Assembly: GCF_964355755.1 (NCBI RefSeq)
Contig: NC_092673.1
Span: 3,787,001-3,851,000, forward strand
DNA from: Antedon mediterranea
Lineage: Eukaryota > Echinodermata > Crinoidea > Comatulida > Antedonidae
DNA length: 64,000 bases
Direction: 5' to 3'
Of this stretch, positions 12,058 through 63,200 are shown piece after piece (within the stretch, counting starts at the first letter, position 1; each line of letters begins with the position of its first letter). Below the pieces are notes generated by a model, which ran no database searches, was not told where the DNA came from, and saw nothing but the letters and a program-made list of their open reading frames with translations. The position numbers were made by a program, and so were the translations under genes.

Positions 12058-15000
12058 TTAAGCTGAAGGCTTCTGCCATGGTTTTCGATCAACGCCCTTA
12101 TTTCCTGGGGTGTGCGTGTAACGGCAGCTGTCTCCAAATGCGCATCCAGTTGTTCTCCAAAAGTAACATTCGTTGCCATTCACCGGTCCCTTCACCTTTG
12201 TTTTATCGATCTCCGTAACAGTACTGAAAAAAGATGACATGCAATAGTGATTTTTGATTGGTTCGTATTAAAAATTTACTAGAGATTTTTATAGTCAAGA
12301 CAGCGCAGGAAATTGGTTTGCATACAATTAGCACACATCAAGTTTGCTCATTTAAATTCAGGTCTCAAATCTAACAAAATTCTGGATTACTTCTTCACAT
12401 ATTATAAACCAACCACCTCTAAAACTGTCCCCTTAGGCTTGATGTGACTGACGCTTGTGATTGGTCAACTCACTTGCATTGGGTCTATGCCATCGTGTTA
12501 CATCCAAGTAGAAACTAAGTATGTGTATGCTTTACATTTGGGTGCTCTATACAAAAAAAAAACCTTGGACCTACCTTGGTTTTGTAACCACCTCAACTTT
12601 CTGTGGCTGAGGCTTAAATTGAGTTTTCTGCATTGGTTTACTTGCAGCTACGGGTGCTGTGGGCTTCACATTTTTTCGTATTATTGTTGTTCTAGGCTGA
12701 CCAGACACAATTGGATTGTCTGGAAATTTGATGAGTAGCTGGCGCCCGTGAAAATCTTTTCCTTGGAGTTTTTCTAAAGCTGTACTTGCCGATAACGCAT
12801 TCTTGAAATTCACAAAAGCACAGAATTTTTCAGGCAGCATACGAACACTTGTAACTGGACCCCACCTGGAATTTAAAAATGTTGAAATGAATATTGTAAA
12901 TGGAGTTATTATTACAATATTAGGGAGCTTTCAATTTATGACTAACATCTAACATATTTCATTTTTTATTTATTTAATTTCAATTCACAATCAACAGCAG
13001 GGAGCTCGCCCTTTACAGACTAGAATACATAAAAAAACAAGACAAAAGAACATCGACAAGGTCCACAAGAACCAATTACAAACCAACTCTTAATTTTCTA
13101 TTTAAATAAAGATAAACAATTAAAGAAAATATCAATAGTGAATTAAGTAATCTCGGTAATCTACAAGTAATACAAGTGAAAATTATTATTTATTCACGAA
13201 AAAAACAATACAAAGCATAGCCTACATATTACACTACATTACACTATATATTATATTTTATTTACAGGTAAATACTAGTATTATTTAGTATGTCAATTCA
13301 AATAAACAAAATATTCTTGTGCACTTACTGTGAAAATAATTCTTCTAAAATTTTTTGTGTGACTGTTGATTGAACATTTCCAATCCACAATGACGTTAAA
13401 TTTTCAGGGTTGCGTGAACTATCAAAAAAATAAATCATAAAAAAATGATTACAGTGACATCGTAAACTGGAAGAATTTTATAGTACTGTTTAGTTTAGTT
13501 TCAGTTTTATTTCACACAACATATTACAATATGCATACATTTGTACTTATAAATAATAATAAAACAATTGATTGTGTGTGGAGATTACAATAAGTCTGAA
13601 CCTCCAGATAAAACAAACAATAAATATTGTGATGACATCGTGAGGTAATTTTCCGTCGTGAGGTAATTTCCCGATTGATCGTAATCAAAACAGTACTGGG
13701 GTTGGTCAACTAGCGTTCCTGCTCCCAACAAGTACATCCATTCATAGAAGCCTTAATGAAGTAAGCCTACCTGGTGGTGGCCATAGAACGGTCCCGAGAT
13801 AACGACTATACTTCGGCTTTAGTCGATAGAAGATTGAAAAAAATTGTTAGAGATAGAGTATACGATGTTTGATTATGTGTAAATGTGTGATTTGTTCTTT
13901 TATTCAAATGATGTTCTGCATAAGGAAACGGAGATAGTAGTTGGGTATAATGATTTTTTATATCAATTAATTAAATTATCATAGATTGTATATTATGCGA
14001 TAAATATTGTTTAATAAATTTTTGATATATTTATTATTATTATAATATTAATAAAAAGATATTTGTTAGTATAAATTTTAAAAATATAGATATAAGGAAG
14101 AAAAGCAAAGAGATTATGGAGCGTCTGTACCAGAATATACAACACTAAGTATTGTAAAGTTAATATAGGCCTACTAAACAATTTAGGTGATCTTGTCAAT
14201 TACCTCACGACTGAAATAAGCAATTAGAAAAACCATACAAGATATGCATTTCAAATAAGCAAAATAAAAAAACAAAAACAACAACAAAACTTTAATGCAT
14301 AACTGTACGTATGCATTGGTAAAAATTCAACAATATTTACTCTTGTCTATTTTCTGTAAGTGTTTGTGCTAAGTAGTCCTCTTCATCAGATATATATATG
14401 TCCTCTTCGGTTTCTGTAGTTTGCGGTACAATTCCACTGAGAAGAGAATCTAACGCCGCTTGTACCGACGTATATTGACGAATTGCTGCTTCACTTTGTT
14501 GTCTTGAAAAACCCATTTCCTAGGAAATAGAAACATAATCAAACAAAAGAAAGCACTCAGAAACTGAGTGAAGTACTTGCCCAAATATTGCCACAGAGGG
14601 TGCATGTTAATGCTAAGTGTACACAATATTTGTTTTTTGTTTTTAGTAATGCATGTTACAAATCTGCAACATAACTTGTGATAACCAACTATTCCCTTCA
14701 TTCAAACAACGTAACATGTTTCAAGTAAAAAGATTGATGAATAAATTAAACCTTTTTTTTAAATAGACTGTACTGAGCATGGCCCAACAAAATTAAAATT
14801 GACATATCTTACAATAAGTTGGTGAGTTCTAACACGAATCAGTTCTTGAACAGCGTCATCACACTCTTTATCAAGTTTTAAAACATGTTCAAATGCTGCT
14901 TCTGCATCAGAATATAACTGAAGAGAAAATTGAAATAGAAAAATAATCAATGAATATCAATCAATCAATGTCAATCAATCAATCAATGTCAATCAATAAA

Positions 15001-18000
15001 TGTCAATCAATGAATATCAATCAATGAATATTAATCACTAAATGTCAATCAATGAATGTCAATCAATGAATATCAATCAATGAATATCAATCAATGAATA
15101 TCAATCAATGAATATCAATCAATGAATATCAATTAATGAATACCAATCAATGAATATCAATCAATGAATATCAATAAATGAATGTCAATCAATGAATATC
15201 AATCAATGAATATCAATCAATGAATATCAATCAATGAATATCAATCAATGAATATCAATCAATGAAATTCAAACAATGAATATCAATCAATGAATGTCAA
15301 TCAATTAATATTAATTAATGAATATCAATCAATCAATATCAATCAATGAATATCAATCAATAAATATCAATCAATAAATGTCAATTAATGAATATTAATG
15401 AATATCAATCAATGAATATCAATCAATGAATATCAATTAATGAATATCAATCAATGAAATTCAAACAATGAATGTCAATCAATGAATATTAATCAATGGA
15501 TGGCAATCAATGAATATCAATCAATGAATATCAATCAATAAATATCAATCAATAAATGTCAATTAATGAATATTAATGAATATTAATCAATAAATGTCAA
15601 TCAATGAATATTAATCAATGAATATAAATCCATGAATATCAATCAATCTCAATCAATGAATATCAATCTCAATCAATGAATATCAATCAATCTCAATCAA
15701 TGAATGAATATCAATGAATATCAAACAATCAATCAATAAATTTAAATCTAAAACAATCAATCAATATTAATCAACCTCAATCAATCAAAACCAATAAACA
15801 ATAACAAGCATGTCCTCCTTTACAAAACAATTTATGATAAAATTAAAATATTTTCTTTATTAACCAAGAAAATTTAGATAATATGGCAAGAAATACAGGA
15901 CTTGAATAATTTTCAATGCATAACAATTATTACAGATGCATTTCTATATCTACAGGTTTCGTTTGTAATGTCAACGACAAAATGTTATTCTTAATTGATA
16001 CCTTATGAGAAAATTGGATAAAACTTACTTTTAAACCAGCGAGGGCTCTTCCTTTTCTAAAATAACCTTTCGGCCAATCTTTATTCAGCTGAATTGCTTT
16101 TTTCGCATCTTCTAATGCTCTTTAAGAATTAAAAATAAACTAGTTATCAACATTTATTATTTATTTTCAGACGAAATTAAAAACATTTGTAATGAATGTA
16201 AAAGCTATAGTATAACCGAGAATATTGAGTCTATAGGTCGCTCAAATAGTCCTTCAGGAAGAAAGTGTCTTTAATAGAGTGTCCACTGAATAGGTGTTGG
16301 CCAATATATTGGCCATTGTTCGTTTCATGTCCCCTTAATATGTGTACCAAAAAAGAGGTTCTATTGTAATTAAATGAAATTTTCAGAAATATAAAAAGCA
16401 ACTTACTTATCATGTTGGCCTATTCGGTCATAACAAAATGATCTATTACCAAAAAACCTATAAAAACAATTGACAAAATAACATCCACAAATAGAAGTAA
16501 TGGAGGAATAAACCTTGAAATTTCTATAAAAACCTATAAAATTTATTTTCATATGATCATAAAATCAAACACACTAAAAACCATGTAGACAGCTATTAAC
16601 TGTTATGTATCTTTTATGTACAGATATAAAACCAATAGGTTGGTTAAGCTTGGTTCCCTTTAGAACGTAACGCAAGGACGTAAACGCAACGCAAGTGGCT
16701 TGTCATTGGTCAATTCACTTGCGTTGCGTTACGTCCTTGCGTTGCGTCGCTAGTGGGAACCACGCTTTAGGGCTTGAGGACTTTTTCTAAGGTATTTGTA
16801 ACGAAACCCAAATGTTATACCGAAAAAATAAATTTAAATGGATTTAAAAGGTCAACTATTTTTTGTTTATGAATACTCATCTGTTTAAACAAAATAGACA
16901 GCATTCACAAACTATTAGCATCAAATTTAGAAATAAACTCACCTAAAATCTTTTGAATCTAGATTAATAGCCTCTGTAAATAATTGAATAGCATCGGAAT
17001 ATAATCCTTGATTTGCCATCTCATTTCCTTTTACTACAAACAAAAATAAAGCCATTAACTATTGTTAATAAGTCGCCTAGTATTTATTCTGATTTATTAC
17101 ATTTTAGAATTATTTATTTACAACAAGAAGACAAATTCATCAATTGCACTTAACTGAGTTATTCCCTTGAGTATTTCACTTAAGTCAGTAAATAATTTCC
17201 CTCACGTCGTATTCATGGTGTGAATGGTGAATACTCAATGGACCTTTTCAACCATGTGACAACATAAAAAGGTCAAAGTTTAACAAAACATGTAACAGGT
17301 AATATATTATTAAAGATTTGAGAAATAACCTTACCAGCAACTTTTCTGCTTTTAAGAACAACAGGATCCATCCCTTCAATACTTTCACCTTGATCCTTGG
17401 ATTTTTTATCTTTCTTTTTAGTTGTAGTCGTTGTGGTGGTTATCTTTTTTGTAGCGGTTGCTGCAGCCCGTGTAAAAAAAGCACTGTGCGTATCCCAGCC
17501 TTGGCCTTCTTCATCACTGGGCCCAGTATTACCATGTGAATCCAGTCTACAAAAAACAAATGGTTCATGTCAAATGAATGATATGGATATAGATGTTTAT
17601 TTTCCCTCGACATAATAAGCAGAAACCTAGAAGATACCATGAAAGGGTGTACAACCAGAAATAGAGTAGAACCCTCCCTTTCTGGAAACCCTACCTTCCT
17701 GTGAAATGAATGTGGGGCAATGCATATTTTAACCCTATAAGGCGACGCTTTGTTGGAGGGTCCCAAAACTGTCCACCTAGGGGTGCTATTATTAATAACT
17801 GTCCACCTAGGGGTGCTATTATTAATAACTGTCCACCTAGGGGTGCTATTATTAATAACTGTCCACCTAGGGGTGCTATTATTAATAACTGTCAACCTAG
17901 GGGTGCTATTATTAATAACTGTCCATCTAGGGGTGCTATTATTAATAACTGTCAACCTAGGGGTGCTATTATTAATAACTGTCCACCTAGGGGTGCTATT

Positions 18001-21000
18001 ATTAATATAAACTTACTTTTTATTTGTTGGGTCTTTTTTAATTTTGGGTTTTTGTTGATTTTGTTCTACATTTTCTTTTGTTGTATTTTTCTTGTCTGTA
18101 TATTTTTTATTTTCAGCTGTTTTTGATGATTCCGTTTCATCTAATCTTTCACTCTGAAAAGAAAGAAAACATCCTTACAAGAATAATAAAGATTGTATTG
18201 TATCTGGGAACGATCTAAACATGTATCTTGGTGGTGGTTTAGTGGGTAAGGCACTCTCCCTATAAGAAAGAGGTTGCATGTTCAGATCCCAAAATAAAAT
18301 CTTTATAACTTTTAACTTTCTGTTGAAGATCCTATAAACAAAGAATTGATAATTTGTACCCTGTCACCAATTAAACACTGCTCTTCTGTTGCCTTATTCA
18401 AAAAATTGCTCAAAACTTATTTTTTCGACTACTAACATGCATAGCATCTTTGATTTTGTACCTCGATCTTTGAATTGATGCTTTAATTTTGATATAATAA
18501 TAAATAATAATCACAATTTGATTCAAAGAATAAGAACAAGAACTAACATAGTTATTTTCAGTTGCTATATAAGATTCTTCGTTCTTTTTCTCTGCTATAT
18601 TTTCATTTATTTTTTCTCCACTATCTGTATTTTTTGCCTTTTCATTAGTTCCTTTTTCTATTCGTTTTTTCTCTTTCTGTCTTTTTTTCTTTGCTTTTTT
18701 CTTTTCTCTTTGTTTCCGTTGTTTTTCCTCTTCTTTTACCAGTTCATCTGCATTTTTTCTTGCTTCCTAATAAAATGAGAGAGAGAAACTATATTTTAAA
18801 GTAATTATTTTATGAGAGCAATATGGTATGATGGCATGGGTCCGATACCTAACTGTGTCACGTTGCTTTATCCATGATACTCTAATATGTCTAATTGCCT
18901 CGTCCTTCGAATGGATCATAGGTCGTTGGTCATGTATAAATACAATGAACATGAACACGATAAAAGAATTTGATATTCTAAGCAAAAAGAGTAGGGCCTT
19001 GTCTCTTAGTATTCTGTTCATGGTAGGCACTGCACCGTGGTTACCATGGGTTTGTAGAGTACATAATCCAACATTTCCTCAGTTAAACTATCAACGATTA
19101 ATAATACATTTTCACAGATGACAACACAATTAGGGATGGTATTAAGCTTAAGGGAAATGTTAATGCATGAATAAAAAAAATTATATAGATGAACTAGAAA
19201 ACATAAATATATGTTCATATATATGGTTAGTTTTCAGTAAAAAAGTTTAAAGAAAAAGTAAAGTTTATTACTTACATCTTCTGAAGGGCGATTTTTTTTA
19301 ATAGTGACATTTTCATCGGTTTTATTTGTATATATTCCTCTTCCAGAGTTGTTTGCCAAGTAGTGAATGAACTGTAAATCATCATCATCTTCATTTAAAA
19401 AGTCAGAATCATTTGAATAATCACTGCCATCGTCAAAGTCATCGCTGTCGTAAAAATTGTTGAATCCTGTAGAAGAAAAAAAAACATATTTAATACCTTG
19501 TTTTTTTTTTTCGCAAATATGGGATGGACTTCTGTCTACCTTAGGCAAGATACTTTACTTACGTTTGCCTCTCTCCACCCAGGTGTATAAATTGGTACCC
19601 AGTTAGATCAAGACACAACTTTGCGCTGGTTACTAGCTGCATTATGGGAGTACTGTATGTTTCCATACGTGTGTGATGCAAAAAAATGGCCAGGGTAATA
19701 ATGTTCAGCGCTTAGAGGTTTCACAACATTAGGCGCTATATAAATCTAGGATATTATTATTATTATTATCTTGGTTCAGTAAATGTGCTCTTAATTTAGT
19801 TAATTTTTTAAGAGACTAAGAAATGGGTCACAAATATATTTATCTATTAATAGAAGAATAATGCCTTAAGCAATATTGAACCTCCTACAACTGTCAACTA
19901 ATATTTGCATACTACAGCAAATTCTGTATTTCTATGATATTCTACATCACTGCACACTGACTATGAAAAGAATGCCTCACAATTATAATGGGAAAAATTT
20001 CGAGAATTAGGTATTTTTGTGCTTGATACAACTAATCATTATCATGTTAGGGTATGTTCAGATCTATGGAGTTATGCTTTCGTATCGCAAGCAGTGTCAT
20101 ATTATAATTAACGTCGTAACAGAAAAGTGTTCAGATTTGCCTAACTAACGCTTTCGTTTCAAACTGAAGTGTCACCGATTTGGGCGAACATATGGTATGA
20201 TGCAGGAATAATTTTGATTGGTTAGCGGTCAAAATCGTTGATGCATGACTTTCGTATCGTAAGCGGCGTTCACTAATCTTGTACCTTGAGCTGTCGTAAC
20301 GAACGAAAGAGTAGTGTCGTATGAGGTGGCTTACACTAATCTTTTCCTGGTTCAGACCTATGGAGTTGTACGCCGCGTACAATACAAAAGTTTAACTCCG
20401 TAGGTCTGAACAGGCCCTTAGAGTAAAAGTTTAGATAGTATGTGGCATAGGTTAAAGGTTATCAATATTAAAACATCCTGTAGGATAAGATGATACCTTA
20501 GTATAATAGGTATAGAACTGTATGTTCATTAAAAGCTTTGTCTACACTATCAAAGTAGTTTGCCAAAAAAGTGTGATGTACCTAAATATGGTAGTGATAT
20601 GCCCAAATATAGTAGTGATATGACATCATCATGTCAATATATGGGCACATCACATTTTTGTTGTCACGTAATTGATAGTGTAGACAGAGCTTAATTGGTA
20701 TAAGCCTATGTTCATTAGAACACTTCTGTGTTTATAACGAACACTTTCATCTTCAACATATGTTGTACTTGCACTATATGCTTTGAGATGTATGTTATAC
20801 TATTGCAGTACAATTTCTTCTTTGGGACACCCTATTAGGTAAACTTTGGATTATGCTGATACTTTTCCATGGAAACTGAGAAGACACCTATATTAAAGAG
20901 ACACTTTGTTGACCTTTAAAGCTCAGGTAAAGGCATGAATTTTAAATATAATATTTGGTTAATTGTACATAAATCAAATATTTGTAACAGAAATCGAGAC

Positions 21001-24000
21001 GAAAAAACATGAATTTCCCTTAATATGGTCAAATACAAAATTTGGCAAAATTCTTCCATAAAAACCAGAAAGACTTTTTTTCAGTAGTTAGGTAGTTAAC
21101 CTAATGTAATAACATGTCTGGTGACTTCCTAGACGATGAAAAAAGATGGTGGATATACGGTGGATAATTTTTGCTATAGCATGAAAATAAAAAGCTGAAG
21201 TTGAATACAAATATCAGAAATGTAATATTCAAGTTATATTACCTATATTTAGTCATCTGATAACATTTTTTACCACACCGTTTATTTTTCATAGCTTTTT
21301 AAAATGCCTCTCTATTTTTATTTTTTTTTTTTTATTTGTGTACAAAAGAATACAGATTTTACTGTGTAATTTGAACTATCCCCCCCACTGATAAGTGCTC
21401 ATTTTCAACAAGCTCACGTAATACAAATAAAATCCCAAAAATTATGAAACATAGGGGAAACTATAGATCGATAATTATTGGAATGTATGATCTATAGAAA
21501 TTTTTTGCCCGCACCTGGCCTTTAAGGTGTCCCTTTAATAGAGGTTCTATAGTATTTCAATAATGCATCTAATCAGGAATACTCACTTGCATTGAAAAAC
21601 ATTCTGGCAAAAAGATCAAACATGTCGGACTGTAAAAATAAGAAGACATAAACACATTCAATATATTTGCACAAAGAAAAATGTCATAATTTGTATGGAT
21701 GAACAGTTTGTGTGGGTGGGCTTTGTTCAATAAAATACTAAGTGTTCTATACTGTACAAGCTACCATCAACAGACAATAATGCTATGTTTATCTTGCATA
21801 TGTACATACTTAAGAAAAGCTGATAAAGACAATTCAAGTATTTAAACAATTTGTATGCATTAAAAATTGCTATCATTTTAGTAACAAATTTAATGTTATC
21901 ATAAAATTACAAAGAGTTAAAAAAGCGTTGACAACACTATCAAACTAGTTTGACCAAAAAAAATGTGATGTGCCCAATATGGTATTGATACGCCTAAATT
22001 TGGTAGTGATATGACATCATCATGTCCGTGTATGGGCACATCATCATGTCCGTATATGGGCACATCACATTTTTACTGTAAAGTTTGATCTTTAATGTAG
22101 ATTATATTATTGTAAATGATGTTCACTCCTAGCTAGCAACAAGACAATAATATAAATGACGTCAATATGGGAAATTTAGTTAAATATATTTTTAGCAACC
22201 TTTCCAACATGAATCAGTGGATTTATAAGAGAATTTCATTATGGTAACAACACCAAGATGCATATTAAAGCTCTGTCTACACTATCAAACTATTATTAAA
22301 ATTACCAAATTATTATGTGAAGGGATTGGCCTCTATTTCTCCTGAGAAAACTGTTTTGTAATACCTTGTCTCAATTAAAATCAGAATGTTAAGCTCTGTC
22401 TACACTATCAAACTTTATGTGACAAAAAAATGTGATGTGGCCATATATGGACATGAAATCAGTACCATATTTAAGCATATCACTACCATATTTGGGCACA
22501 TCCCACTTTTTTTGTCAAACTAGTTTGATAGTGTAGACACAGCTTAAGATGAACCCATAAAACTGCCTAAAAAACATAACAAATTTAAAAAAACAATATT
22601 TCTATTTATTTAAACTTACAGGAGACAAAATAATTTCGCTGCCATCTTCAGGTTCGTCTGATGTCAGGCGTTTGTAAGCTGCTGACACTTCTTGAAATTT
22701 CTAAGAAAAAATTTGATTGAATTACCGTATTCATAAAAAAATTTCAATAATTTATAATATACGGAATACACATTAGATTCTTAAAAACATTTTATTTTTT
22801 GATTACAGTACTTTTTTTAGGTTTATTTACACTGTATCTATCCTCATTATCAACATCAGAATATTTCATAAAATACTGCTTTGTGAATTTCATTTCAACT
22901 CTCCTTTTGTTAAGCTGATGTGATGTGCCCAAATGTAACGATATGATGTCATCATGTCCATATATGGGCACATCAAGTTTTTGTTGTCACATGATGGTGT
23001 AGACAGAGCTTTATACTATATGTGGATGTTTTAAAATTCTAAAGCTCTGTCTACACTATCAAACTTTATGTGACAAAAAAAATGTCATCACACTTACATA
23101 TACATATTAATTAATAACAACATATTACTTTCATAGGGAAGTATTATTCTTATAATATACCTTTGTTGCAGATTCTGAGTTGTGGTGTTTATCAGGGTGC
23201 CATTTTAAAGCAAGTTTTTTATAGGCAGCTCTAATTTCTTCTTCGTCAGCTCCTAAGAAAAGAATAATAACGTCATTTGTTTATACAAGTTTACGTTCTC
23301 TATTGTTAATGTTATATTCTTTTGAAATAATCATAAACCTGAAAGAATCATGTATTGAACCAGATTAAATAGCGAAAAGATAAATATCTAGGTTAATTTA
23401 TTCACATATTACAAAATACAGAAACTATAGAATAAGGGTTTCAGCTAGTTAAACAAAATAGGCAACCCATGTCATAATGGTAATCCATAGCATAACATTA
23501 TGGTTCTGAACATGCCTTAAAGGTAGCTTTGGATAGCACAATGGGTAAATAGGGAACATATTTGAATCAATCAATATAGAACTGAATACTGTATATTTTC
23601 GTGAGTAGGGAATTTCCAAATATTTCTTTGTTCCTTAAAAATACCACCTGCTCATTTCATTCATCAGACCAAAAAAAATACAACTTAAACAATTTCTCAA
23701 ACGGTCTTAAGTTGGAGACCTGATGATGAACTAATAATATTTTCAAATCAAAGGCCTCCATTTTAGTAACAAAATTTCCAGCTATTGATGTTAACAATAC
23801 TGTAAGTAAGTTGTATTATTACTATTATTAGGAATTTAAAGTATGCTTCACACAAAAGCCTATATATACTAATTGTATCGTATGAAAAAAGAATCGTGAC
23901 ATCACAATAGGTGAAGAGGGATGTTGGTCGGGTTTACATTTGTGTTCCATGTCTACAAATCGAAAGTAGCAATATTTTTTGCTGTAAAAAAAAATTTTCA

Positions 24001-24867
24001 CAATAGGTACACAGATTGTATCTACGCGTCTTGGCAAAGGTCGTGTTTCCGCAGCCAAAACAAAATTATCGGTTACTTGTTTACCCAATCAGGTAATTAA
24101 TTAACAAATAAAGTGCGCATGATCATGCATTACCGAACAACCAAGTGCCAAATCACAACGCAACAATTTTTCCTTCAGGTCAAAGGTTAAAAAATCTGAT
24201 TTAAAGGAGATAATTATTGGTAATATTTTAATAATTTTAGAATCGGTTAAACCCCTTTTCCACTGGCAGTTTATTAGTTAATTATCAGTTATTTTTGGAT
24301 GCGGAAACACGGCCATAGATGTAGCCACTGCGTATTATAAGGCTAGGCCCAATGTTACAAATTTACTTTTTATTGTTTCATGTGAAAATGCAAAAATATT
24401 CAGACATCAAATTAAGTTTAATTATTGGGAAAATTATCATTCATAAATGTATTATTATCATTATGCCACTTTTTACCTAATTTGTATACATTTTTATTTT
24501 GTATTATGTTTTGTTGGGTCTTTCTGAGACAGGCCTTGGCCTCTAAGTCTGATCCCAATTAATGAAATCTTTATTTGTTTATATTGTTTACATTGTTTAA
24601 GTTTTCATTAATTGAATAAATGTGAAATGAAATGAAATTGCTTGAAATTAAAAAAAAATAAATATCAATCAAAATAGAATCATAAATAAATATTCTCATA
24701 ATCATATGAATATGAAATTCTTTCTATCATAAGATGTTAATACATTTTAAATCATATTACTAGGCGTCATATTGAAGTTCAAAATTAAAAGAAGAATTGT
24801 CTAGGCTAAATAACTTGCCTCTCGGGATGCCTAAGATATCACAAGCTTCCTCGGTTGACAGTCCCAT
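12058..24867 (-). CDS. J-domain / TPR / UBA-like / RRM / CCCH zinc-finger protein, 695 aa
   Basis: Sixteen exons on the minus strand, all phases closing: 24819-24867 (ATG), 23161-23252, 22620-22700, 21587-21629, 19276-19466, 18548-18766, 18017-18153, 17335-17546, 16943-17033, 16407-16457, 16029-16119, 14813-14917, 14341-14519, 13329-13418, 12575-12865, 12058-12223 (TAA). Domains: J domain at 5-70 with the HPD motif (KLALKWHPDKHH); acidic stretch around 90-115; Lys/Glu-rich coiled-coil-like 153-270; Thr/Lys tract; three TPRs about 341-454 (VKGNEMA, FGNRSF, WPKGYFRKGRAL); UBA-like EMGFSRQQSEAA at 455-490; acidic SDEEDY; RRM about 522-590 (RNP2 SLWIGNV, RNP1 KFCAFVNF); CCCH finger C659-x7-C667-x5-C673-x3-H677. 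The TPRs keep four of the five Hsp70/Hsp90 carboxylate-clamp positions (N12, N43, K73, R77 in HOP numbering); the K8 position reads Ala. Inference: an Hsp70 co-chaperone that also binds RNA. Intron 1 uses a GC donor. I cannot assign a standard symbol; TTC31-like is one possibility for the TPR part. Confidence 0.9.
12432..12520. mobile_element. F2 MITE, degraded
   Basis: Contains CGCTTGTGATTGGTCAACTC and ACTTGCATTGGG, with TCCAAGTAGAAACTAAGT at the right, as in the other F2 copies. Confidence 0.6.
14945..15790. repeat. 14-bp tandem array (TCAATCAATGAATA)n
   Basis: About 850 bp of a 14-bp unit with many single-base variants, in the intron between exons 16029-16119 and 14813-14917 of the J/TPR gene. 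It begins 28 bp from the acceptor of the latter exon. Confidence 0.95.
16647..16766. mobile_element. F2 MITE, near-perfect palindrome
   Basis: TTA/TTA flanks (16644-16646, 16767-16769). Ends AGCTTGGTTCCCTTTAGAAC and CTAGTGGGAACCACGCT. The stem carries AACGCAAGGACGTAAACGC and its complement GCGTTACGTCCTTGCGTTGC. Confidence 0.92.
17771..18006. repeat. 30-bp minisatellite, 8 units
   Basis: Units start at 17771, 17801, 17831, 17861, 17891, 17921, 17951 and 17981, reading GTCCACCTAGGGGTGCTATT plus ATTAATAACT. Only position 4-6 variants (GTCAAC, GTCCAT) are seen, so the array is young. It sits about 10 bp from the donor of the J/TPR exon 18017-18153. The 30-bp period keeps frames open but nothing suggests coding. 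Confidence 0.95.
18222..18300 (+). mobile_element. tRNA-like SINE head
   Basis: GGTGGTTTAGTGGGTAAGGC and a B-box-like GTTCAGATCCC, then an A-rich stretch. Single copy in the window. Confidence 0.45.
19500..19772 (+). mobile_element. SINE S3 with (ATT)n tail
   Basis: CTCTCTCCACCCAGGTGTAT, GCGCTTAGAGGTTTCACAAC, GGCGCTATATAAATCTAGG then (ATT)n. This type is widespread in marine invertebrates. Confidence 0.8.
20050..20417. mobile_element. F4 element with canonical Harbinger-like ends
   Basis: TTA/TTA flanks (20047-20049, 20418-20420). Ends GGGTATGTTCAGATCTATGG and (complement) GGGCCTGTTCAGACCTACGG. 368 bp, no transposase. Confidence 0.88.
20534..20691. mobile_element. F1 MITE
   Basis: AGCTTTGTCTACACTATCAA at the left and TGATAGTGTAGACAGAGCT at the right, followed by TAA. 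Confidence 0.9.
20897..21534. mobile_element. F6 TTAA element (AGAGACACTTTG ends)
   Basis: TTAA at 20893-20896 and 21535-21538. Ends AGAGACACTTTGTTGACCTT and GGCCTTTAAGGTGTCCCT. 638 bp in an intron of the J/TPR gene. Confidence 0.82.
21921..22106. mobile_element. F1 MITE, degenerate, with an internal duplication
   Basis: Diverged left end GTTGACAACACTATCAAACT. The block ATCATGTCCGTRTATGGGCA occurs twice in tandem. The right end decays after AAAGTTTGATC. Confidence 0.75.
22269..22294. mobile_element. F1 solo terminal repeat
   Basis: TAA then AGCTCTGTCTACACTATCAA and ACTAT, with no interior. It abuts the segment duplicated at 63756. Confidence 0.75.
22297..22391. repeat. 95-bp segment duplicated at 63756-63850
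   Basis: TAAAATTACCAAATTATTAT, GGGATTGGCCTCTATTTCTC and AAAACTGTTTTGTAATACC are shared with one difference seen in the spacer (T/G). Both copies lead into an F1 MITE at the same base. Confidence 0.92.
22392..22544. mobile_element. F1 MITE, full
   Basis: TTA at left and TAA at right of AGCTCTGTCTACACTATCAA ... TTTGATAGTGTAGACACAGCT. Lies in intron 3 of the J/TPR gene. Confidence 0.92.
22913..23010. mobile_element. F1 MITE, internally deleted
   Basis: TTA/TTA flanks (22910-22912, 23011-23013). The left arm is shortened to AGCTGATGTGATGTGCCC; the right arm ends GGTGTAGACAGAGCT. Confidence 0.8.
23043..23095. mobile_element. F1 MITE, left fragment
   Basis: TAA, then AGCTCTGTCTACACTATCAA and TTTATGTGAC. 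Ends before the second arm. Confidence 0.8.
24530..24640 (+). mobile_element. LINE-like 3' tail
   Basis: CAGGCCTTGGCCTCTAAGTC stem and GAATAAATGTGAAATGAAAT end. Confidence 0.35.
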
Positions 24868-39400: not shown

Positions 39401-42400
39401 GAAATAGTTGGAGGTGTGGTAGTACGGACGCCAGTTGAGGTGAGTAGTACCCAACTATAATTAAATGTTATTAGGCCTATAATAGGACTACCTATCACTT
39501 GATAAAGGCTTGTTGATAATATGTGAATTAATGTGATTGATAGACTACTATTATTGGACAGATGAGGTGACCAAATTAACAAAATCATTAGGAATTTGGT
39601 AAGAACATATCTTACAATATATATTATGTGGAAAGAGTAAAAATATCAGGGAAGAGTGAAAATGTAAGCGAAGAGTGAAAATATCAGGTTAGAGTGATAA
39701 TATAAGCAAAGAGTGAACATATTAGGAAAAAGTGAAAATATCAGGGAAGAGTGAAATATCAGAGAGGAGTAAAAATATAAGCAAAGAGTGAAAATATCAG
39801 GAAAAAGTGAAAATATCAGGAAAGAGTGAAATGTCAGAGAAGAGTGAAAATATCAGGTTAGAGTGAAAATATAAGCAAAGAGTAAAGATATCAGGGAAGA
39901 GTGAAATATCAGAGAAGAGTGAAAATATCACGGAAGATTGAAAGTTCTTCCTTGACTATATTATATCATCCAGTTTCCTGCCTACTTTTAAGAGACATGA
40001 AAACCAAGTTTGTTTCATAGGTACTCCTAACTAAACTTTTTCTATCTTTTTAGACTAGATATTCAAAAGTTGAAACAATGGTAAATATGGTATGTCCATA
40101 TACACCATGTCATTGTGTCCTAAATTTACATCTACTGCACGCTTATAAGACCTTAAAAAAGTTGGTTTGCGGTCATAAATGCCAGGCCAATATTGCCTTT
40201 TACTTGTGGACATAACTGTATGAAAAGTGTAAGAAACCGATAAAATATTTTTGTACCCGCCCTCTCCGTTCTCAAAATAGAATTGTGGTCCCAACCCAAT
40301 TCTTGATTATGTTATTAAATTGTTATTGTAATTCATATTTTGAATATTAAAACAAAAGTACCATTTTCACTTTAAAAACAAATCAGGGCAATGCTTGACA
40401 GCAAACAAAAACTTTTTTAAAGCCTGTATTTAATAGTATATTTTGAAGAAAAAAACATATATTGCATGACCTTTTCATTTCAGTTATTGTGTTACGTAAG
40501 TGTATAGTTGTTTAGAAATCAATTTAAAAATACCTTGAATCAGTGCATAAGCGTCGATAGGAATTTTGCAATGGTGAACAAAAGGTTTAAATTGTGGTGA
40601 CCTATCCTCCCATCCAAATCTCATGTACACCTTTAGAATCTTTCAAAGAACAAAGAATTCCAGTTTGCCGCTTACATAATAGATTTATAGTTTTTCTATA
40701 GTCCTATCTGAAGTCATACCATACATGTAAAACAAATAGAAAAGAAATGTTGTCTATGAAAGAAGTTGTTAGGCAAAAACAGCATGTTGTTAGCGTGGGG
40801 AATGTGTCGGTTGTAATTAAGTGAAGGGTTTTAGTGAATATCTGTCACCTTTCAGCACAGTCGGACATTTTGGTTTTGGCCTCTGTTGACCCCGACAATT
40901 GAGGAAAGTTTTTTTCTGAAGCCGCCCAGTTTTCCAAAACCCATGGTACGTCCAAATTGCATTTAAAACAAAAGCATTCACACATTATACGCTATTTCTA
41001 ATGGTTTGTTGATTTTGCATTTTATACATGGTCGCTGTCTTCTTTAGCATGACGAATCCACGTTAAGGTGGAATTCTCTTAAGCTTCTTCTCAAGACCTA
41101 TTTTGAAATGAAAAAAATGGTAAGTTTGGTGTTTGAATAACAGCATGGTTTGCCAATGGTTCTTCAGTCAGAAATCGTATCGCATCTTGGACTAACATTC
41201 GTCTTGAAGACAAGCATCAATGTCTGAAGTAAATACAAGTTTCATAAAGACTGAATTGTGCCTTTTTGTAGCATGAATGTTTAATTTGTTCAATATGATT
41301 CCAATTCTCCGAAATTGTCAGATTGTAAATGCATTCTTCTATTTATCTATCTATCCTATCAATCCGTTCATCCATCTTTCTTTCTATCAATCAGTTCATC
41401 CATCTTTCTTTCTATCAATCCGTTCATCCATCTTTCTTTCTATCTATCCTATCAATCCGTTCATCCATCTTTCTTTCTACAGTATCTATCCTATCAATCC
41501 GTTCATCCATCTTTCTTTCTATCTATCCTATCAATCCGTTCATCCATCTTTCTTTCTATCAATCCGTTCATCCATCTTTCTTTCTATCTATCCTATCAAT
41601 CCGTTCATCCATCTTTCTTTCTATCAATCAGTTCATCCATCTTTCTTTCTATCAATCCGTTCATCTTTCTTTCTATCTATCCTATCAATCCGTTCATCCA
41701 TCTTTCTTTCTATCAATCCTATTAATCCGTTCATCCATCTTTCTTTCTATCTATCCTATCAATCCGTTCATCCATCTTTCTTTCTATCCATCCTATCAAT
41801 CCGTTCATCCATCTTTCTTTCTATCTATCCTATCAATCCGTTCATCCATCTTTCTTTCTATCAATCCGTTCATCCATCTTTCTTTCTATCAATCCGTTCA
41901 TCCATCTTTCTTCCTATCAATCCGTTCATCCATCTTTCTTTCTATCTATCCTATCAATCCGTTCATCCATCTTTCTTTCTATCTATCCTATCAATCCGTT
42001 CATCCATCTTTCTTTCTATCTATCCTATCAATCCGTTCATCCATCTTTCTTTCTATCTATCCTATCAATCCGTTCATCCATCTTTCTTTCTATCTATCCT
42101 ATCAATCCGTTCATCCATCTTTCTTTCTATCTATTCTATCAATGCGTTCATCCATCTTTCTTTCTATCAATGCGTTCATCCATCTTTCTTTCTATCAATC
42201 CGTTCATCCATCTTTCTTTCTATCAATCCGTTCATCCATCTTTCTTTCTATCAATCCGTTCATCCATCTTTCTTTCTATCAATCCGTTCATCCATCTTTC
42301 TTTCTATCAATCCGTTCATCCATCTTTCTTTCTATCAATCCGTTCATCCATCTTTCTTTCTATCCATCCTATCAATCCGTTCATCCATCTTTCTTTCTAT

Positions 42401-45400
42401 CCATCCTATCAATCCGTTCATCCATCTTTCTTTCTATCTATCCTATCAATCCGTTCATCCATCTTTCTTTCTATCTATCCTATCAATCCGTTCATCCATC
42501 TTTCTTTCTATCTATCCTATCAATCCATTCATCCATCTTTCTTTCTATCCCTCCTATCAATCAGTTCATCCATCTTTCTTTCTATCTATCCTATCAATCC
42601 GTTCATCCATCTTTCTTTCTATCTATCCTATCAATCCGTTCATCCATCTTTCTTTCTATCTATCCTATCAATCCGTTCATCCATCTTTCTTTCTATCTAT
42701 CCTATCAATCCGTTCATCCATCTTTCTTTCTATCTATCCTATCAATCCGTTCATCCATCTTTCTTTCTATCTATTCTATCAATGCGTTCATCCATCTTTC
42801 TTTCTATCAATGCGTTCATCCATCTTTCTTTCTATCAATGCGTTCATCCATCTTTCTTTCTATCAATCCGTTCTTCCATCTTTCTTTCTATCAATCCGTT
42901 CATCCATCTTTCTTTCTATCAATCCGTTCATCCATCTTTCTTTCTATCAATCCGTTCATCCATCTTTCTTTCTATCAATCCGTTCATCCATCTTTCTTTC
43001 TATCAATCCGTTCATCCATCTTTCTTTCTATCTATCCTATCAATCCGTTCATCCATCTTTCTTTCTATCCATCCTATCAATCCGTTCATCCATCTTTCTT
43101 TCTATCTATCCTATCAATCCGTTCATCCATCTTTCTTTCTATCTATCCTATCAATCCGTTCATCCATCTTTCTTTCTATCTATCCTATCAATCCGTTCAT
43201 CCATCTTTCTTTCTATCTATCCTATCAATCCGTTCATCCATCTTTCTTTCTATCTATCCTATCAATCCGTTCATCCATCTTTCTTTCTATCTATTCTATC
43301 AATGCGTTCATCCATCTTTCTTTCTATCAATGCGTTCATCCATCTTTCTTTCTATCAATCCGTTCATCCATCTTTCTTTCTATCAATCCGTTCATCCATC
43401 TTTCTTTCTATCAATCCGTTCATCCATCTTTCTTTCTATCAATCCGTTCATCCATCTTTCTTTCTATCAATCCGTTCATCCATCTTTCTTTCTATCAATC
43501 CGTTCATCCATCTTTCTTTCTATCCATCCTATCAATCCGTTCATCCATCTTTCTTTCTATCTATCCTATCAATCCGTTCATCCATCTTTCTTTCTATCTA
43601 TCCTATCAATCAGTTCATCCATCTTTCTTTCTATCTATCCTATCAATCCGTTCATCCATCTTTCTTTCTATCTATCCTATCAATCAGTTCATCCATCTTT
43701 CTTTCTATCTATCCTATCAATCCGTTCATCCATCTTTCTTTCTATCTATCCTATCAATCAGTTCATCCATCTTTCTTTCTATCTATCCTATCAATCCGTT
43801 CATCCATCTTTCTTTCTATCTATCCTATCAATCCGTTCATCCATCTTTCTTTCTATCTATCCTATCAATCCGTTCATCCATCTTTCTTTCTATCTATCCT
43901 ATCAATCCGTTCATCCATCTTTCTTTCTATCTATCCTATCAATCCGTTCATCCATCTTTCTTTCTATCTATCCTATCAATCCGTTCATCCATCTTTCTTT
44001 CTATCTATCCTATCAATCCGTTCATCCATCTTTCTTTCTATCTATCCTATCAATCCGTTCATCCATCTTTCTTTCTATCTATCCTATCAATCCGTTCATC
44101 CATCTTTCTTTCTATCTATCCTATCAATCCGTTCATCCATCTTTCTTTCTATCTATCCTATCAATCCGTTCATCCATCTTTCTTTCTATCTATCCTATCA
44201 ATCCGTTCATCCATCTTTCTTTCTATCCATCCTAGTTCCTTCTTTCTTTCTATCTATCTATCTATCCATCCTCCTCTTACCTTCTTTTTATCATACATCT
44301 TTCTTTCTATCAATCCTAGTTCCTTCTTATCAATCCTAATTCCTTCCTTCTTTCTTTCACTCTTCCTTTTTTTCTATCCATCCCCCATCCTTCTTCCTTT
44401 CTTTTTTTCTTTCTATCCATCCTCCTCCATCCTTTCTTTCTTTCTATCCATCCTTCTCTTACCTTCTTTCTATCATCCTCCTTTCTTTTCCATCCTCCTC
44501 CTTTCTAACCATATATTTTTCTGTTTCATCAATTCATCAATATATTTACCCACCTACCTACCCAGGTTGGATGTAGATATTAGAAACATTTATTACCGTT
44601 GATTTTAGTTTTCTAGGATTGTGTTTAAACCAATATATCAATTATAATTAGGTTACAAGTGAACTTTCTTAGTTTCCTTCTTCTCCCATTTATTAATGCT
44701 TATTCATCCAACATAACATTACGTTCTGTATATGTGCCGTTCGTCTCCATTAAAGCCGCCAACTGGCTGAATGCCAAGTGCTTCACTATCCAGGGTCCAG
44801 AAGTCCATCAGCTAGGATATTAATAGTAGCTGCTGTTATTAGTACTGTACTACTACAACATTTATATTAATTTTAACAGATTTTATAAATATTTGTATAT
44901 TGTGTTTATGGTACTGTAGATAGTGGTGTTCTATACATTGGTTTATATTATAGGAATCAATCAATCACTATCACATTGTGTAGCAAAAAGCAGTATATTT
45001 TATATCACATAGCTTGTACAATGTAAATTTAATAGCTATCGCGCTTTAATATATGATCTATTTTGGTTGGTAAAAGTTGCGATATGATGTTAACAAATGC
45101 AGCGAACCGGTAGTTCGTTCGACTACAAAATGTCTAGGGCGCCATATCGATATTCTATATAAAGAATATTATCTCCCTAATGTACGATACTGTACGTGAA
45201 TTAATTTCACTCTGAATTCCGTATGTTATAGTAAAAGCTCTTTACATATCCTGTAGTTTAGAGTCTGTATATACAGTAGCTTACAATATAGAATTCTTTT
45301 ATAAATATTTATTATATGTATTGAATGTGATTTTTCTTCTTTTGACAGGCTAGCTACTTAGTCCCTAGCTTGTGACCTAGCTTGTGACCTCTTGTTTCCT

Positions 45401-60245: not shown

Positions 60246-63200
60246 TTAGAAAAGATCCTTTCCCTTGAATTCGCTGAGTGCTTGGACTGGGTTGATTTTT
60301 GCCTTCTTGTTTCCACGACGGACGTTTGATTGCGAGTTCTCGAGATTCTTCTTTTGGACGAGGGGTTTCTTTTCAGGAGGTCGGATCTTCCAGCTCACAA
60401 TTGGCGACTAAATAAAATCAAATAAATTATAAACCAATTATTAATACAGTTGACTCTCTGAAAACCTAAAACTCTCACAAAACCAGACTTTTCTTTTGAG
60501 GTCTAAAAGGTCCCAAATTCATTTTTACCATTAAATACATTCTGAATACCGGACTATCCAGAAAACCAGACATATTAGGCCAGCTTAAAGGTGACCAGTA
60601 TTGAGAGAGTATATTCAGCCGAACGGGTGCCGTTTGGTGGCAGCACTCAACACGGAGGGACCCTTAGGGGAGTACAAAGCTGTGGTATATGTCGTCCACA
60701 CCTGTGCGCTCAAGTTTTCTTTAATTGGAGGAAGGCAAGTACTCACATTGATTGAACTTTTTCCCTTTAGACGGTTGTATTTCGTTGATGCTACATACGA
60801 CGCCTTCACTGTCTGTACTACAGCAGTCATCAAATTTTTAGCTGCCGTGATTAAAGACGAAGCACTGTCTAACTAAAAACATAATCAAACAAAATAAATA
60901 AACTATTTTACCTCCCTTCTCCATTGAAAAAAAAATCTTGGAATAATAAATGTACAACAAAAAGGTTGACGTTTGTGTAGAAAATGCATATAGTTTTCTT
61001 TCAAGGGTATATATGTCGATATATGACCACATCACATTTGTAACATAAAGTTTGATAGTGTAGACAGAGCTTTAGATTTAAAAAATGCTATTATGTTGCT
61101 GCTATAGGGCCAGGACTTGAATATATAACTCTGGGATTGGTAACATGTTTATATAAGCTTGGAGTTTTTTTTCTTTTTCTGAATTTGAAATTTTTTGAAG
61201 AAATTGAAAAAAAAAATGACTTACTCCTGAGAGCACCAGTTCACCACTGACATTTTGTACCTCTGCTTTCACCTTACTGGTGATGTTTAGCTGATGGCAG
61301 TAGAGAGTGATCTTCTGAAGATACGAGACAAGGTCAGTCTTTGATGATGAATCTGGGCACTGATCAGCGATGGCTCTTGCTAGGTTGTCTAGCTTGTTAC
61401 CAAAGTCTGCGATCTTTTTGGCGGCTTTGATCACGTCCATGGTGTTCTTTAAAGGTCCATGGCCACTGTTAAATAAGTAAATTAATGATATTATTTATGG
61501 CGACGTTAGGCAAACTGTGGGCGAACATTTGTGAAGGGCTGTGGGGTGGCTTAAAAAATTGTGGAAAAAAAACAAATGATGATTTATCGTCGTAAGCGCC
61601 TTTATTATAACATGGTTTGATGAAATTGTTTTATATGCAGCTTGTTACCCTCCAAAAAATACAATACCATTCACAGGGACCTACAGGTCCATATTCCTAA
61701 AATGTTCTTATACCTCAGCTCCAACCATGGTGGATGGGGTGAGGTGGCGGACTCTTGTATATGTGCGGCTAAAGTTTTGATCGCCGCAATGCAATGTCAA
61801 ATTCTGACATGTCTCGTGTGCGTTATAAAGGGAAAACCCCAGGACTGTGCTGAATATTATTTCCACAATTTTCTTAACTCAGCCCCAACAATGGTGTTCT
61901 GAATAGTCTAAATATTAAATCATTACACCTTAATGTGGTATAGTAAAAAAGGTCTTGCACATGCGCAACATATACAAAATTAATACACCCTTATTCTCAC
62001 ATACCGCGTAAAGTCTGTCATTTCCATCATAATCATACACATTTTCTTGGCTAGAATAATGATGTCATTGCCGCTGTCGTCCCATTTTGCCATTTCTTGA
62101 TCCAACTTTGCCTTTTCAACTTTGAACTCTTCAACTTGTTCTTCGATCTTTTCTCTCTCTTCTTGTGGCAGCTGTCTCATTTGGCTCTAAAGATTAAAAG
62201 CAAAAGAAAACTGTATAAAATTGTAGAAGTAGCTTCTTGGTTTAAATACATATATGGCTTAAATGCAACTAAAGCTCTGTCTACACTATCAAACTAGATT
62301 GATATGGTAGTGATATGCTTAAATATGGTAGTGATATGACATCATTATGTCCATATATGGGCACATCACATCAAATTTGTGTCTTTGTTGTTTTTATTTA
62401 CTGAATATATTCTCAAAAGCACTGATAACTTTGAAACGTATTACAAAGTCCACCAACAAATTATAACATTTGTCCTCAAAATTAAACATTAACTTACTCT
62501 ACCAATATGGCCCTCTTCTAACTCCTCATCATTTGTTTGGTAGCTTGCTGAAATGATTAAAATATAATTATATATATTACAAAACAGAAATTGTATTTCT
62601 ATATTATATTTATATAATTAATAATGTTGACAATGCCCTGATTAAGGGCTAGAGTTGCCCGAAAGCTCTGGACATTTATCTGCTTGTTTTACTTTATCGT
62701 TTTGATTTAGCTTTTTGCCTATTTTATTTTGTATCTCCATTGAGATCCATCCACTGATACACACAGCATTGTCATTTTGTCAGTAATTTTCCTTTGGATA
62801 TATAACTAATAATTTTATTATTTAATACTTACATTTACTCTTCGTGTCATAGTCCTCCTCTTCTTCCATTTCTGACTCATCAAATATGTCTTCTGGGTTC
62901 TATAAACCAAATAAAATTCCATCAAAAATACTTTTTTTAGTTAGTTATAAACTACCAATAAACCTTTAATGCACTAAATCTTTCATTAAGTTTGGTTATT
63001 TAATTAGTTATTAGAATGGGGAATAGAGTAAACTTTTCATATACAGTCAACTCTCTTCATACCAGACACCTTTGGGTTGGGCAAATATGTCTGGTTTTCC
63101 AGAGAGTCTGGTATTCAGAATGTATTTAATGGTAAAAATGAATTTGGGACCTTTTGAACTTTGAGAAAAGTCTGGTTTGTAAGAGTTTCCAGAGAGTCCA

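Follow-up and report, generated by a model that had tools for sequence, protein, structure and literature searches.

Can one protein of an echinoderm join an Hsp70-recruiting J domain to tetratricopeptide repeats (TPRs) and RNA-binding modules, and to which family would such a protein belong? The question is raised by a minus-strand gene (24867..12058) in a 64,000-nucleotide stretch of the genome of the crinoid Antedon mediterranea (NC_092673.1, positions 3787001-3851000; this whole stretch is called the window, and positions below are counted within it). Judged by sequence, the gene is a member of the TTC31 family that also carries J, UBA-like, RRM, and CCCH modules, an identity missed by an earlier note on this DNA. 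The predicted gene structure supports a single protein with the order J-TPR-UBA-like-RRM-CCCH. We consider it somewhat more probable than a coin toss that this TTC31-family gene encodes an RNA-tethered class C J-domain co-chaperone, a putative function read from the domains.

Gene structure and reading frame

The gene model comprises 16 minus-strand exons, listed below, whose spliced length of 2088 nucleotides (nt) yields 695 codons and a stop codon, with all junctions in phase. Acceptors are AG at all 15 introns and donors are GT at 14 of 15; the remaining donor is GC, at intron 1, a GC-AG intron with donor GCAAGT at 24818 (minus strand) within the J-domain coding region. The start codon lies in the context GAAAATGG; an in-frame stop precedes it by 18 nt, and AATAAA occurs 128 nt beyond the gene's stop codon. 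The joined frame is free of in-frame stops until its last codon; stops interrupt both alternative frames in 15 of the 16 exons and just one of them in exon 4. By RNY (purine, any base, pyrimidine) periodicity, the chosen frame ranks first on its own in 10 of 16 exons and ties in 2. The G+C fraction at codon positions 1, 2, and 3 is 0.48, 0.37, and 0.26. Methionines (Met) stand at positions 1, 77, 84, 330, and later, and exons 5, 6, and 7 contain none; the coiled-coil part therefore requires a start farther upstream, and the J exons supply one.

Exon 1, 24819..24867, minus strand: start codon and beginning of the J domain (residues 1-16 plus the first base of 17); the GC-AG intron comes next
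Exon 2, 23161..23252, minus strand: J domain including HPD (35-37)
Exon 3, 22620..22700, minus strand: end of the J domain (residues 48-74)
Exon 4, 21587..21629, minus strand: SDMFDLFARMFFNA, helix V-like DLF motif (79-86), by comparison with PMC11021509
Exon 5, 19276..19466, minus strand: acidic segment, Met-free
Exon 6, 18548..18766, minus strand: charged segment that aligns with the coiled coil of human TTC31 (provisional sequence, see below)
Exon 7, 18017..18153, minus strand: charged linker, Met-free
Exon 8, 17335..17546, minus strand: linker, then the beginning of the TPR domain; A341, clamp position 8
Exon 9, 16943..17033, minus strand: first TPR; N345, clamp position 12
Exon 10, 16407..16457, minus strand: TPR with GNRSFC; N376, clamp position 43
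Exon 11, 16029..16119, minus strand: TPR; K406 and R410, clamp positions 73 and 77
Exon 12, 14813..14917, minus strand: third TPR, then the beginning of the UBA-like segment
Exon 13, 14341..14519, minus strand: UBA-like segment (MGF loop) and acidic tail
Exon 14, 13329..13418, minus strand: first part of the RRM, RNP2-like LWIGNV
Exon 15, 12575..12865, minus strand: second part of the RRM, RNP1-like KFCAFVNF, and linker
Exon 16, 12058..12223, minus strand: CCCH finger (C660, C668, C674, H678) and stop codon

The J domain, TPRs, and RRM exceed profile cut-offs

In a Pfam search of the 695-residue protein (best 25 of 27 families listed), the J domain (DnaJ, PF00226; expect value [E] 1.1e-18; HPD at 35-37), the TPRs (TPR_2; E 2.3e-13), and the RRM (RRM_1; E 2.3e-15, 56.6 bits against a cut-off of 20.7) were all above the Pfam cut-offs, in agreement with the earlier note on these three domains and on an intact HPD. 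The RNP2 motif reads LWIGNV and the RNP1 motif KFCAFVNF. Across the genome (all genome searches covered 354 Mb in 18 contigs), a DnaJ search returned 33 exon matches, including exon 2 of the TTC31-like gene at 37.8 bits. The predicted protein has the HPD-bearing J domain by which class C J-domain proteins are recognized, and recruitment and stimulation of Hsp70 by this domain are plausible.

Residues 76 to 86, read from the sequence, are DMFDLFARMFF, with DLFARMFF at 79-86. According to PMC11021509, the HPD surface of class B J proteins is masked by a DIF/DVF motif located in helix V; in DNAJB6b, HPD occupies 31-33 and helix V spans 96-104. The distance from HPD to motif is 42 residues in the window protein versus 63 in DNAJB6b. 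Among the best stretches of 40 PDB sequences aligned to the J region, none extends to the DLF motif. The resemblance of this motif to the class B helix V latch, a short and post hoc match, is best regarded as a lead.

Relationship to TTC31

Human TTC31 (UniProt Q49AM3) is described as a protein of 519 residues with a coiled coil at 147-197 and TPRs at 305-406, in which residues 281-285 (REERP) are changed in an isoform (PMC7279152). The human sequence used in all comparisons was a provisional copy; with 519 residues and REERP at 281, it agrees with the published landmarks. The window protein matched it with 105 bits and 41% identity over 120 residues, and for human residues 304-375 the spliced window protein reached 77.4 bits versus 34 for the best TPR exon of a genome search, a comparison in which program settings may differ. 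Both proteins have a coiled coil followed by three TPRs, with FGNRSFC and Ala at clamp position 8 in common. To gauge individual regions, we counted how many of 1000 shuffles per region reached the observed score. In the coiled coil, 40 aligned residues scored 120 versus a shuffle maximum of 77, and none of the 1000 shuffles reached 120. The observed score was reached by 54 shuffles for the J domain (against full-length human TTC31), 92 for residues 75-152 (against human 1-146), 113 for the linker at 200-335 (against human 198-303), 831 for the UBA-like part and tail (against human 407-519), and 288 for the RRM-CCCH part (against the same human stretch).

In Pfam, the human sequence matched 14 TPR families and, weakly, DUF1382 (E 0.35), with TPRs alone above cut-off. 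The window protein differs in having J, UBA-like, RRM, and CCCH segments, which did not rise above shuffles in the human stretches tried; by this provisional copy, the human relative does not keep the domain order of the window protein. When the genome was searched with the window protein, 22 matches resulted: 14 at the protein's own locus and 8 elsewhere (5 to the TPR part and 3 to the J part); the two shortest exons, 1 and 4, were not matched individually. Of the loci found in this search, this one alone matched beyond the J or TPR part.

The carboxylate clamp is incomplete

Among proteins of solved structure, HOP/STIP1 matched the TPRs best (55-59 bits in its two best stretches); it differs in having Lys at clamp position 8 and is not known to have a J, RRM, or CCCH domain. 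Alignment to HOP TPR1 places the clamp residues at A341 (position 8), N345 (12), N376 (43), K406 (73), and R410 (77). Four of the five members of the carboxylate-clamp set K8, N12, N43, K73, and R77 are kept, and position 8 is Ala. At the aligned positions, the provisional human TTC31 sequence has Ala 8, Thr 12, Asn 43, Arg 73, and Arg 77. In what follows we take CHIP K30 to be the equivalent of HOP K8. The HOP substitution K8A lowers Hsp70 binding (PMC5809404) and has been employed as an Hsp70-nonbinding mutant (PMC7688965), and CHIP K30A is reported to lose Hsp70 binding (PMC11300456, PMC5891347).

Clamp-type TPRs that bind EEVD tails had been proposed for this protein. The four retained residues and the Ala at position 8 were as described, but the TPRs probably grip chaperone tails weakly, because replacement by Ala at this site reportedly disrupts the binding of Hsp70 by HOP and CHIP and because the provisional human TTC31 sequence has the same Ala plus Thr at position 12. 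The label "clamp-type" is overstated, and on the Ala and the mutant reports we rejected a standard carboxylate clamp. Four of five clamp residues are insufficient for calling a TPR domain EEVD-binding.

Weighing the evidence

Several observations weigh against reading this gene as a TTC31-family protein with J and RNA-binding modules. RNY periodicity is lower in the chosen frame in 4 of 16 exons (3, 13, 14, and 15). The weakest links of the gene model are introns 3 to 5, on which the connection between the J exons and the TTC31-like part depends: no domain spans their junctions and homology does not bridge them, so that their support consists of splice signals, phase, and the Met-free exons 5-7. 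An exon-by-exon genome search with the human TTC31 sequence found 6 other TPR exons, and this locus was not among them, which taken at face value counts against orthology; we attribute the miss to the shortness of the TPR exons (17-35 residues). The TTC31 comparison itself relies on the provisional human sequence. At one usually aromatic position of the canonical RNP1 pattern, the RRM has Cys. In the whole protein, UBA reached E 0.014 and 15.7 bits, below the cut-off of 22.4, and a genome-wide search for the UBA family gave 11 matching exons that did not include the UBA-like exon 13. The CCCH finger, also in the whole protein, reached E 0.015-0.036 across the five families listed, below their cut-offs. 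Published data on human TTC31, in the passages concerned, point to centrosome duplication and make no tie between TTC31 and RNA.

Taken alone, the UBA-like segment improved to E 6.7e-4 and 19.9 bits, still below 22.4, and matched six PDB sequences (Dsk2, Rad23A) at E 0.049-1.6. The CCCH segment alone reached a best E of 4e-4, still below cut-off; it shows the spacing C-X7-C-X5-C-X3-H at 660-678 and matched 14 PDB sequences, the best being a cytoplasmic zinc-finger protein (E 0.0049), followed by CPSF30 (0.0085). The UBA and zf-CCCH matches foreseen for this protein are thus recognizable as segments but fall below every cut-off listed, and given these scores and the absence of exon 13 from the genome-wide UBA matches we rejected both as certain domains. 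Ubiquitin sensing through the UBA-like segment is unproven. RNA binding is plausible, with a clear RRM_1, one RNP1 aromatic replaced by Cys, and a CCCH finger below cut-off.

We weighed three other explanations for the locus. A working carboxylate clamp, by which one molecule would activate Hsp70 through its J domain and also hold Hsp70/Hsp90 tails, could draw on the four retained clamp residues, on HOP as the top solved relative of the TPRs, and on a report, cited in PMC5809404, that K8A has no effect on HOP-Hsp70 binding in mouse fibroblasts, a result that speaks against a weakened grip. We nevertheless hold such a clamp to be unlikely, since Ala at position 8 is a reported loss-of-binding substitution and the provisional human sequence adds Thr at position 12 to the same Ala. 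A TTC31-type scaffold for centrosome or mitotic control, with J, RRM, and CCCH as minor modules, would fit the supernumerary centrosomes and congression defects that follow knockdown of human TTC31 (PMC3817404); the intact HPD and the RNP2-like motif, which would argue for selection on these modules, make it improbable.

The remaining explanation concerns the gene model: two genes or isoforms, the one a short product that has only the J domain and terminates within intron 3, the other a TTC31-like TPR-UBA-RRM-CCCH gene whose own first exon is unseen. Read-through at the exon 3 donor (22580-22700, minus strand) leads to a stop after SPVSLNK, with AATAAA at 22610, which makes a J-only isoform conceivable, and both the lack of homology support for introns 3-5 and the lack of a J domain in the provisional human TTC31 sequence are in keeping with such a split. 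Nonetheless, introns 3-5 have consensus-like, in-phase donors and acceptors, the Met-free exons 5-7 leave the downstream part in need of an upstream start, and chance AATAAA would be expected often in such AT-rich DNA. We regard this division as quite improbable.

An RNA-tethered co-chaperone as the favored reading

If the gene encodes an RNA-tethered class C co-chaperone, the RRM and CCCH finger would place the protein on RNA or ribonucleoprotein, where the J domain would stimulate Hsp70 locally. Until it is engaged, the J domain may be latched by the DLF motif. The TPRs would chiefly hold some protein partner that is not a free EEVD tail, or would have a weak affinity for EEVD. The joint function suggested in the earlier note survives in part: its Hsp70 and RNA components are plausible, but its clamp and ubiquitin components are weak in view of Ala at position 8 and the sub-cut-off UBA. 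More speculatively, TTC31 may descend from an RNA-tethered J-domain chaperone, with the gene here keeping the full J-coiled coil-TPR-UBA-RRM-CCCH form, a helix V-like latch next to the J domain that is freed once the TPR groove is occupied by a partner, and a mammalian gene that lost both ends and kept the scaffold; we offer this history tentatively, as doubtful but possible.

Among known proteins, DNAJC17 is the only J-domain protein with an RRM according to a preprint on the human Hsp70 network (PMC12248113), which also reports that this RRM inhibits J-domain stimulation of Hsp70. The window protein resembles DNAJC17 in its N-terminal J domain, coiled coil, and RRM and differs in its TPR, UBA-like, and CCCH segments, which are missing from the architecture described for DNAJC17, the two being compared by description only. 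In a table of catfish Hsp40 genes (PMC4277396), J plus RRM corresponds to dnajc17 and J plus TPR to dnajc3 and dnajc7. DNAJC3 and DNAJC7 share the J domain and TPRs with the window protein; in contrast, they have seven TPRs ahead of the J domain, and neither RRM nor CCCH is listed in their rows. Literature searches, judged by titles and abstract openings and with subscription journals largely uncovered, found no description of the full architecture, and titles and abstract openings likewise gave no link between TTC31 and DnaJ. A scan of viral contigs for relatives yielded 4 pattern stretches, none confirmed.

Other features of the window

Apart from the exons, we recorded repeats within and outside the introns of the gene and one further coding match. 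The motif GATAGTGTAGACA[AG]AGC looks like the end of a repeat of the miniature inverted-repeat transposable element type. The vinculin-family frame is perhaps an alpha-catenin exon, a name that we guess.

61102-61494, minus strand: open frame with a match to the vinculin family (PF01044, E 1.6e-35)
Throughout the window, both strands: 16 copies of GATAGTGTAGACA[AG]AGC (6 plus, 10 minus), including those in introns 2-4 at 23060, 22409, 22286, 20674, and 20551
17767-18007, intron 7: tandem array, 30 bp x 8
14945-15719, intron 11: tandem array, 14 bp x 55.5
41412-44234: large pyrimidine-rich array of 83 copies of a 37-bp unit, with a GC skew of -0.55 over 40001-44000

Implications

The predicted chain would combine an Hsp70-recruiting J domain with RNA-binding modules, a pairing that the preprint reports for DNAJC17 alone (PMC12248113). 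The poorly understood TTC31 thereby gains a possible wider function, in which protein-folding machinery may be brought to RNA-protein complexes.

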